From Paenalcaligenes niemegkensis (GTDB lineage Bacteria; Pseudomonadota; Gammaproteobacteria; Burkholderiales; Burkholderiaceae_B), in the NCBI RefSeq assembly GCF_022230885.1, contig NZ_JAKGCT010000005.1:124001-188000 (forward strand): a DNA stretch of 64,000 nt. The letters run 5' to 3'. The notes under the pieces were generated by a model. The model saw only the letters and a program-made list of their open reading frames with translations. It ran no database searches and had not been told where the DNA came from. A program made the position numbers and the translations under genes. This document shows positions 59,969 to 61,803 of this stretch, in pieces. Numbering within the stretch: the first letter of the stretch is position 1; each line of letters begins with the position of its first letter.

Positions 59969-60684
59969 ATGTCCATGAATCCAGAGACTCGCGCCAAGCT
60001 GTCTACCGTTAGTACGGCTACCTTGTGTACGGCACTTTTTAAACGTGGTTTGCGTAATCAGTTTATTCAAGACGTGCGGCCATTGAATCCCGCATTGCCG
60101 AATATGGTGGGCGAGGCTTTTACCTTGCGCTATATTCCTGCTCGCGAAGATCTCAATCCCTTATCCGCATTTCAGGATCGTCAGCATCCGCAGCGAGTGG
60201 CTGTGGAGCAGTGTCCTGAAGGCGCTGTCATGGTTATCGATAGCCGTAAAGATGCACGTGCAGCTTCGGCCGGTTCTATTTTGATTTCACGCCTGATGAA
60301 ACGTGGTGCACGCGGCATCGTGACCGATGGCGGTTTTCGTGACTCGCCTGAAATTGCAGGACTGGATATCCCTGCCTACCATAATCGACCATCGGCGCCG
60401 ACCAACCTGACCTTGCACCACGCCATGGATATCAATGTACCCATTGGCTGCGGCGATGCGCCGGTCTTCCCGGGGATGTAGTGGTGGGCGACGCTGAAGG
60501 CGTCATCATCATCCCAGCAGAGATTGCTGACGAGGTTGCTGAAGAAGCCGTGCAGATGACGGTTTTTGAAGACTTCGTGATGGAACAGGTGCTTAAGGGC
60601 AAGTCGATCTTGGGCTTATATCCAGCGACTGATGAGCAAACCAATGTGGATTTTGCTGCATGGCGTAAAGAAAACAACCGTTAA
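59969..60684 (+). CDS. RraA-like aldolase/decarboxylase family protein, frameshifted as assembled
   Basis: A second RraA/HMG-CHA aldolase-family protein, related to the one at 11433-12143. Site motifs: AGSILISRLMKRGARG and IVTDGGFRDSPE (the R and D of the catalytic pair). The frame closes at 60481 after VFPGM; adding a G to the G4 run at 60472-60475 restores VFPGDVVVGDAEGVIIIP and gives about 238 residues. CAGGAGTAAC provides the ribosome binding site. In this locus it could cleave a 2-keto-3-deoxy sugar acid retro-aldol style, which would compete with, or replace, the dehydration to 2-ketoglutarate semialdehyde. This is inference. Confidence 0.88.
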
Positions 60685-60862
60685 ATTGGTTTGTCGGCTT
60701 GCCTATGGTGTACCAGATCAAGCCGGCTTTGCCGGCAAAATTACGCCAAGCACAGGCAAAAAATTACTCTCTAATAAAGGCCTGTGATACTTGTTGCCAA
60801 CAAGGCATAAAAAAGTGCACAGCTCGTTAGTTAGAGTCAAACGTTGAACCTGCCTCGTTGTA

Positions 60863-61024
60863 GCCACTGTCGTGGTGGTGTGAAAATCGGCTTCACGCTT
60901 TCCTGTTCGACGCCGTCGCGTCGAACCCAGCTTCGCCCCGTTCGTCCGCGCCTGTGCGCTGCCTTCACGTCCGTCGGCTGGCGGGCCGCGACGTCGCCGA
61001 TTTTCACACCACCACGACAGTGGC
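60863..61024. repeat. Perfect 29-bp terminal inverted repeat flanking a GC-rich 104-bp core
   Basis: The arm at 60863-60891 (starting GCCACTGTCGTGGTGGTG) is the exact reverse complement of 60996-61024. The 104-bp core is clearly GC-richer than its surroundings and itself has a GTTCGACG/CGTCGAAC stem. No open frame of conviction lies inside. The layout resembles a miniature inverted-repeat element or a large structured RNA. No target-site duplication is obvious at the ends. It lies between the RraA-like gene and the GntR gene, both pointing toward it. A smaller GCCGGC/GCCGGC hairpin near 60721-60736 may end the upstream operon. Confidence 0.8.
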
Positions 61025-61116
61025 GTGTTAAGAAATCCAGCACAACAAGAAACTTCACTCAGCGGCGTCTAAAGAAAACCAACGTAACAGTAGAAAGCCA
61101 CTGCCCTTAAAACTGC

Positions 61117-61803
61117 CTATACCTGTTTGAAAAAAGAAGGATGTTCAGCCTGAATCTTGGCAATGTACTTAGGCGTACCTGACATATGAACGCGTAAGCA
61201 TTGCTGTGCGCGATCGGGGTCTTGATCAACAATAGCCTGAAATAATTGCCGATGCTCATCGATAATACGGTCGCGTTTGCCGACAAAGGGAAGATGCAGA
61301 CGGCGTACCCTGTCGAGGTCACCGCTACGGCTACATATCAGATGCCAAAGCTCTTCTTTCCCTACCCAGCGATACAAGCTTTGATGAAAGTCTCTATCCG
61401 CTTGCGTGAATCCGGCCAGGTCCTTGGCGTCCAGCAGTTTCTTCTGCTGTTCCAGTTGTTCTTTTAACCTGTTGATTAGCGCCTCATCACGATTAAGGGC
61501 GACTTCCCGTACAACCTCCAGTTCGACGGCTCGACGTAGAAAGTGTGTTTCCTGGGCGAAGGATACGTCAATCAGGCTGACACGTGTGGAGGACTGTGGA
61601 AAAACGTCGACCAGACGCTCTTCTGCAAGCCGTAGCAATGCTTCGCGCACGGGTGTCTGGCTGACATCATAGGTATTCGCCAGTTTTGCCCTTGAAAGGA
61701 CAAAACCGGGTGCCAGATCCAGCGAGACAATTTTTTCGCGAAACAGCTCGTAAAGCTGCGGTGCAGCTTGTCGTCCTCGATCGAGTGTTATGTTTGTAGT
61801 CAT
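61117..61803 (-). CDS. GntR-family transcriptional regulator with FCD domain
   Basis: A 228-residue regulator. The winged helix spans about residues 14-80, with the recognition region RAKLANTYDVSQTPVREALLRLAEE. The FCD (FadR C-terminal) effector domain follows, with the metal/ligand histidines in ADRDFHQSLYRW and in DEHRQLFQAIVDQD. FCD-GntR proteins respond to sugar acids or carboxylates. It is the last gene of the minus-strand TRAP series, with an operator candidate just upstream that is also found in the divergent promoter at 58074. Confidence 0.92.
   Translation of the reverse strand: MTTNITLDRGRQAAPQLYELFREKIVSLDLAPGFVLSRAKLANTYDVSQTPVREALLRLAEERLVDVFPQSSTRVSLIDVSFAQETHFLRRAVELEVVREVALNRDEALINRLKEQLEQQKKLLDAKDLAGFTQADRDFHQSLYRWVGKEELWHLICSRSGDLDRVRRLHLPFVGKRDRIIDEHRQLFQAIVDQDPDRAQQCLRVHMSGTPKYIAKIQAEHPSFFKQV

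Follow-up and report, generated by a model that had tools for sequence, protein, structure and literature searches.

The copies of a MITE family share their terminal repeats, and REP, REPIN and BIME sequences are intergenic, dispersed hairpins, often in inverted pairs close to the 3' ends of genes, with a stem sequence shared within a family. Two further repeats are reported from Bordetella. The Beta-proteobacterial repeat element (BRE) is described as being 75-91 bp long, its copies often standing in tandem only a few nucleotides apart; the same report places it also in Comamonadaceae, with 29 copies in Polaromonas sp. JS666, and in several betaproteobacterial families (Hot et al. 2011, PMC3110155). 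Bor is given as a 26-30 bp Bordetella repeat (PMC1590033). As to how hairpin stems evolve, template switching has been proposed for RNA hairpins, as a process in which multi-base compensatory changes are copied across the stem (Monttinen and Loytynoja 2022, PMC8794818).

The element studied here covers 162 bp (positions 60863-61024) of the window, the 64-kb stretch of DNA that was analysed. Its two arms (60863-60891 and 60996-61024, 29 nt each, separated by a 104-nt spacer) are 100% complementary (29 of 29 positions), as the initial annotation had noted. A scan with 12-mer seeds, outward extension and a spacer of up to 260 gave 29 nt as the longest inverted repeat in the window versus at most 13 nt in 10 dinucleotide-shuffled windows, and the repeat is not due to chance. 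We refer to the minus strand, which is the structured one, as the R strand. On this strand, positions 60996-61024 form the 5' arm and positions 60863-60891 the 3' arm of the closing stem P1, both assigned by arm complementarity and a covariance-model match. Between them lies a conserved 104-nt core (60892-60995, minus strand) that is common to copies of other genera, as seen in a core-only comparison and the covariance-model match. Inside the core, the palindrome at 60905-60926, which had also been recognized from the sequence, reads GTTCGACGC-CGTC-GCGTCGAAC and corresponds to hairpin P4 (minus strand), with 9 bp and a 4-nt loop; 6 of its 9 pairs show two-sided changes in the A5 alignment (helix 8). 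The best-conserved stretch of the core is arm P3 (60941-60966, minus strand), where GAAGGCAGCGCACAGGCGCGGACGAA on the R strand forms a short hairpin within a purine-rich internal loop; this stretch was also the source of the exact search motif used below. The RNA folding z-score of the element is -8.1, and equal stability was reached in 0 of 200 shuffles. The described GC-rich composition, unlike that of the surroundings, is borne out as well (0.66 versus 0.44-0.51 in flanking 200-nt windows).

The position is intergenic, as previously stated, between two genes whose 3' ends both point towards the element: an RraA/HMG-aldolase-like gene on the plus strand (59969-60684, end approximate) and a GntR-type regulator gene on the minus strand (61117-61803), 93 nt away. 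The aldolase-like frame is broken near 60480 (within 60470-60500), and the remainder of the protein is found in another frame up to ~60684; this gene is either a real pseudogene or the product of an assembly error. An integron attC site was considered and rejected: attC core sites have the motif GTTRRRY / RYYYAAC, and the termini here are GCCACTG / CAGTGGC. A search of Rfam 15 with positions 60600-61300 gave no match up to an E value of 1, and for five related loci only a microRNA model appeared, at 38.8 bits versus a cut-off of 150.

To what family the element belongs became visible from its interior. In a first search of 60 relatives, the interior was matched in two genomes (G024 and G015), where the loci have a common core and differing arms, the arms again pairing with themselves. 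The remaining matches were due to chance or came from the window's own genome; two early ones (L009 and L010) had unpaired arms and were dropped as chance matches. We then used a covariance model (R1) built from eight aligned copies with the window left out. It matched the window element over the whole model (1-160) at 97.6 bits, with an E value of 1.2e-14 in the family-genome search and of 2.1e-16 in the 64-kb window. Matches to R1 occurred in 32 of 151 genomes of the family, own genome included, and in 14 of 43 genera; the 19 best candidates were scored per genome and up to at least 19 matches were obtained in a genome, and copy numbers and absences are to be read as lower bounds. We could place 175 matches in 29 genomes. 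Among 300 genomes of the order, only family members gave matches (three of the 10 listed there), with none in the ~290 order genomes that, judging by the listing, lie outside the family (nine best candidates per genome). Within the genus of the window, the module was found in one of 11 genomes, namely the window's own.

The exact core motif was present in 42 stretches among 84,980 species, all with Alcaligenaceae names; as it was written with the window in view, this search shows the family range and is no proof of the window's membership. The carriers are Bordetella genomosp. 4, Bordetella sp. 02P26C-1, Pollutimonas, Candidimonas, Paracandidimonas, Pusillimonas, Mesopusillimonas and unnamed Alcaligenaceae; the lineage was looked up for five of these names, and Pusillimonas is a genus of the Alcaligenaceae. 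Independent proof of membership comes from the core-only comparison. The window core alone matched 67 of 169 other cores at E<1e-3, with a best score of 70.7 bits, versus a best score of 36.5 bits and at most four matched cores in 200 core shuffles. The window element is thus a member of a family, hereafter module A, of ~130-200 nt (127-199 nt as measured) that was met only in Alcaligenaceae. Its key feature is the combination of a conserved core, ~100 nt long and folded into a branched structure, with a free stem, the arms not being the conserved part, as read from the sequences of the copies. Copies cluster by genome: the nearest core was from the same genome in 115 of 157 cases, and the core tree required 51 changes of genome label versus 134.7 with shuffled labels. 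No match was found in plasmids for the window element, a related module or a whole unit of the G133 genome described below, in phages for a related module, or in viral contigs for the core motif (0 matches). A unit from another genome (G079) matched 913 plasmid records, and among the eight matches listed only the stretch of an inserted IS256-family copy was aligned. The literature searched yielded no description of module A, which is apparently undescribed so far.

The range of module A bears on whether it could be a known Bordetella repeat. BRE and Bor are likewise described as repeats of Bordetella that lie mostly between genes and are hairpin-forming or GC-rich (PMC3110155, PMC1590033). However, BRE has a wider host range, at odds with the absence of module A from the order genomes outside the family at nine candidates per genome, and all exact motif stretches bear Alcaligenaceae names. 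We consider an identity with either repeat highly improbable.

At the window, the module stands alone. The full 162 bp occur once in the own genome (3.67 Mb, 7 contigs), and the covariance model gave one match only in the 64-kb window, with no second module. The exact 29-mer arm had 0 matches in the genome contig collection because the arms are copy-specific. The nearest other core sampled is at most 68% identical to the window core, the window locus was not found in genus relatives, and the 10 other genomes of the genus gave no module match. The best reading of these results is that the window copy is a solo, old and diverged module between two convergent genes, not a recent arrival.

The initial annotation had offered a choice between recent arrival, as for a miniature transposable element, and strong selection on a hairpin RNA. 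Each holds part of the truth, and the choice is incomplete. The idea of a mobile element fits the family, which is dispersed in other genera, but not a recent arrival of this copy. The perfect arms, from which recency had been argued, are no sign of it, because arms in the family stay paired while differing widely between copies. Selection on a hairpin agrees with the structural constraint described below. The search for further copies that had been advised found the exact element only once in its own genome, and related modules in multiple copies in other genera. It had also been proposed that a single sequence, located at the same place in all relatives and neither mobile nor transcribed, would speak against both options; the exact sequence is single, but the locus was not found in genus relatives and the family is multicopy elsewhere.

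The R strands of the copies have a common fold, consisting of P1 (~25-43 bp), a short inner P2, the P3 arm with its well-conserved purine-rich GAAGGNAG...GACGA, and the P4 hairpin. In 30 distinct rows, 94.9% of the cells were paired versus 63.8 after shuffling, two-sided changes were present in 55 of 61 pairs overall and in 31 of 31 stem pairs, and the covariation score was 0.579 versus 0.122 for shuffled and 0.05-0.08 for slid partners; the structure guided this alignment, which also contains two reverse-strand rows and one cut-off copy, and the counts therefore lean towards the structure. RNAalifold, run on a plain MAFFT alignment of 19 copies including the window, predicted 31 pairs; two-sided changes occur in 21 of these. 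A structural constraint on the module is supported because two-sided changes also occur in the inner helices, in all seven except one of 2 bp.

How the stem stays paired was approached by counting. Over the outer 20 stem pairs of 170 copies, 3271 of 3400 are Watson-Crick pairs, 79 are G-T, 18 are A-C and 32 are other; these copies were gathered with a model that rewards paired stems, and poorly paired copies are under-counted. There are 134 distinct 20-nt 5' arms among 169 copies, and in 99 of 169 copies every one of the 20 pairs is Watson-Crick. We then compared near-identical copies from the same genome (cores at least 95% alike, all 170 copies eligible), which gave 42 comparisons that are not independent of each other within a genome. 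Their 63 stem changes comprise 33 compensated doubles, 29 singles (14 G-T, 7 A-C and 8 other) and one other change, and 20 of the 33 doubles are transversions for which no G-U step is possible. Thinning, in which each combination of genome, position and state is counted once, leaves 25 doubles (15 transversional), 19 singles and one other. With cores at least 90% alike, we obtained 86 doubles, 50 singles and one other (50, 25 and one when thinned). Among copies with good stems only (145 of 170, cores at least 95% alike), 33 doubles stand against 12 singles, a filter that leaves out the 25 copies with poorer stems and favours doubles. Stems thus change mostly by matched pairs while the cores are little diverged. 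An example is a pair of copies in one Bordetella genome: their 102-nt cores are identical, and their stems differ by four compensated changes, of which three are transversional, without any single change. The orthologous copies L168 and L170, which lie behind one and the same gene in two congeneric species, differ by five compensated changes and three singles.

The reading that we favour, with a confidence that only slightly outweighs our doubt, is that the window element is a solo, old copy of an Alcaligenaceae module whose stem is kept paired partly by templated rewriting of the arms and whose core is constrained. In the proposed mechanism, the hairpin would form on single-stranded DNA and one arm would be copied from the other. 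Since the arms would be kept alike in good part by such templated correction, a mutation in the stem would be either erased or copied to the partner arm. The core would be held by selection, something recognizing it, probably as minus-strand RNA. At so little core divergence, double transversions would be hard to reach stepwise, and we infer that templated copying is the simple explanation. Against it, singles in the unfiltered counts are nearly as common as doubles (29 versus 33, or 19 versus 25 when thinned). In addition, in six other comparisons whose cores passed the 95% threshold, more than 7 of 24 stem pairs differed, and these were counted separately; they fit a transfer of cores between different stems by gene conversion or recombination, a process that would inflate the contrast between doubles and singles. 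With these six added, there are 109 doubles, 38 singles and 16 others.

Alternatively, the stem could be paired only by selection on an RNA or DNA structure, with ordinary mutations followed by compensating ones. In favour of this possibility, which we regard as distinctly less probable, are the covariation of the inner helices, the share of unfiltered singles (29 of 63 changes) and the tolerance of G-T above A-C pairs that an RNA helix would show. It accounts poorly for the 20 of 63 changes that are double transversions without a G-U path, for the pair with identical cores, and for the 99 copies with complete Watson-Crick stems. After thinning, non-Watson-Crick pairs on the R strand amount to 72 G-T versus 17 A-C (p = 3e-9). 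This excess could reflect either G-U-tolerant pairing of an R-strand RNA or more C-to-T change on that strand, and with either source one would expect the R strand to be the transcribed sense; strand-biased mutation as the source, instead of RNA, would count against the favoured reading. A bolder version, which seems rather unlikely to us, is that the stem is rewritten as a unit, via a single-stranded hairpin, when the element is copied, replicated or moved, so that the stem would drift fast in matched fashion while the core, recognized in trans, would remain fixed. If so, such an element would forgo recombination between copies as well as any sequence-specific recognition of its stem, and would keep its shape.

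In other genomes of the family, modules also occur in pairs. All 53 inverted pairs of neighbouring modules (53 of 53) have the same order, with the R strands pointing apart, and are spaced by 229-1839 nt (median 532), closing units of 0.55-2.2 kb. In another 69 loci only one module is present, and for 45 of these the search covered 1.9 kb or more on the inner side; in view of these 69 sampled solo loci, an inverted partner on the inner side is not a required feature, and its absence at the window is no exception. Each half-unit also has a second hairpin with copy-specific complementary arms (L008 1712-1775, L014 1680-1740, L073 and others), preceded by a box like GAAGATYTTGCRGGGCTGC with which the hairpin loop could pair in some copies. 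By eye, the window copy showed no inner box and no second hairpin. In L071 and L072 (both from G111), the same two types of second hairpin lie on opposite sides, as if recombined or inverted.

The genome of Bordetella genomosp. 4 (G133) has nine units that share their sequence up to sharp ends followed by unrelated flanks, a weakly G-rich lead being the sole shared part beyond these ends. Five of these sites were examined in relatives and two are clearly empty. At the first, three relatives align straight without the unit and a fourth with a short gap. At the second, the unit is absent in relatives such as G085 and G152; in G024, however, the right flank adjoins such a unit at a contig end, and this second site may be occupied there. 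At the other three sites, the flanks are far apart or partly missing in relatives. The G133 units are dispersed and relatives have empty sites, and therefore units come and go. No target duplication was seen at the unit ends; the empty sites in relatives are only 70-75% identical over the joined flanks, with a diverged junction. No gene family recurs among the ORFs of at least 140 aa between modules, except for an IS256-family transposase or what is left of it, present in five loci of G079 and one of G111, the family name being taken from L069. A transposase with matching ends, which the initial annotation had suggested looking for, was thus not found as the family's own.

These IS256-family copies or remnants lie inside the units of L069, L070, L071, L144, L146 and L147, and near position 1501 of L059 an apparent IS256-type IS end abuts the module; IS256-family elements may favour the units as targets. 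Y1 transposases were considered as partners and rejected: Y1_Tnp was present in 6 of 32 genomes with modules versus 25 of 119 without (Fisher p = 1.0), a comparison that takes two 151-genome draws as the same set, and no Y1 transposase match was found in the window's own genome. Another intergenic repeat, GGTGTCTGACACC... / GTCAGACACCTGGC, is seen in Bordetella relatives (L238 1040-1520, L240 1660-2060, L232, L237 and L239) in gaps where G133 has units; in L238 it forms a tandem array with units of ~40 bp.

Dispersal in one well-studied genome and absence at orthologous sites would also be expected of a classical MITE, of which the window copy would be a recent arrival, its 29-bp arms being the terminal inverted repeats. 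Yet the arms differ between copies (134 distinct among 169), the window copy is single with a core at most 68% like any other, and no gene family of the units' own was found inside them, the transposase met there belonging to the IS256 family. We judge this explanation improbable. Templated rewriting in a constrained module remains our preferred reading for the stem, and the place of these modules relative to genes adds a separate aspect.

For 144 copies, an ORF was called no more than 300 bp away on the outer side; 124 of them face its 3' end, at a median distance of 78 bp, and 20 face its 5' end; ORFs were called heuristically, eight of 170 copies overlapping an ORF were set aside, and the window was excluded, its broken aldolase-like gene being uncalled. 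The gap behind hemB and opposite dsbD, as we take these genes to be from their protein sequences, has modules in seven genomes of four genera; dsbD is visible in six of the seven, and in the seventh the contig ends. A single ancestral insertion for all copies in this gap is unsupported, as the majority group with other copies from their own genome and only L168 and L170, from one genus, pair with each other. At the window, the element lies downstream of the GntR gene, and its R strand is the sense strand of GntR read-through RNA.

Modules could accordingly be a working 3'-end device between convergent genes, stopping or protecting the read-through RNA of the opposite gene, with the minus strand as the sense strand at the window. 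The orientation towards 3' ends, the recurrent occupation of the hemB-dsbD gap and the position after the GntR gene are consistent with this possibility, to which we give tentative and limited credence. Modules are missing in relatives at two tested sites, however, the downstream R-strand flank is A-rich in the family, and 3' ends may simply be places where elements are tolerated. We also rejected the reading of module A as an intrinsic terminator, since a U-run is missing: at the window, none follows the hairpin on either strand, the flanks being TACAACGAGG (minus strand) and GTGTTAAGAA (plus strand).

The origin and upkeep of long perfect stems is a standing question in RNA evolution. With its many close copies and their matched, often transversional stem changes, module A allows templated rewriting of arms in bacteria to be tested by counting and is a good site for studying how DNA hairpins rewrite themselves. 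It also marks gene 3' ends in Bordetella and relatives, and bears on the separation of convergent genes or on where such elements can settle.

Compared with known systems, module A resembles MITEs and foldback elements in its structured inverted ends, its lack of a gene of its own, its dispersal and its presence or absence at orthologous sites; it differs in that its ends consist of a branched core and a free stem, with no terminal sequence shared across genomes. It is like the REP, REPIN and BIME sequences, which are mobilised by RAYT, a Y1 transposase, in forming intergenic, dispersed hairpins in inverted pairs near 3' ends, whereas stems are shared between copies of a REP family and differ between copies of module A. 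With BRE it shares being repeated, mostly intergenic and GC-rich in Bordetella; on the published description, BRE is set apart by its 75-91 bp and often tandem arrangement, against 127-199 nt and Alcaligenaceae only for module A (PMC3110155). The closest likeness in mechanism is to the template-switch RNA hairpins, for which cross-stem copying was proposed; by that account the histories of RNA genes were reconstructed there (PMC8794818), whereas here the process would operate on an element that is dispersed in bacterial genomes and present as many close copies.
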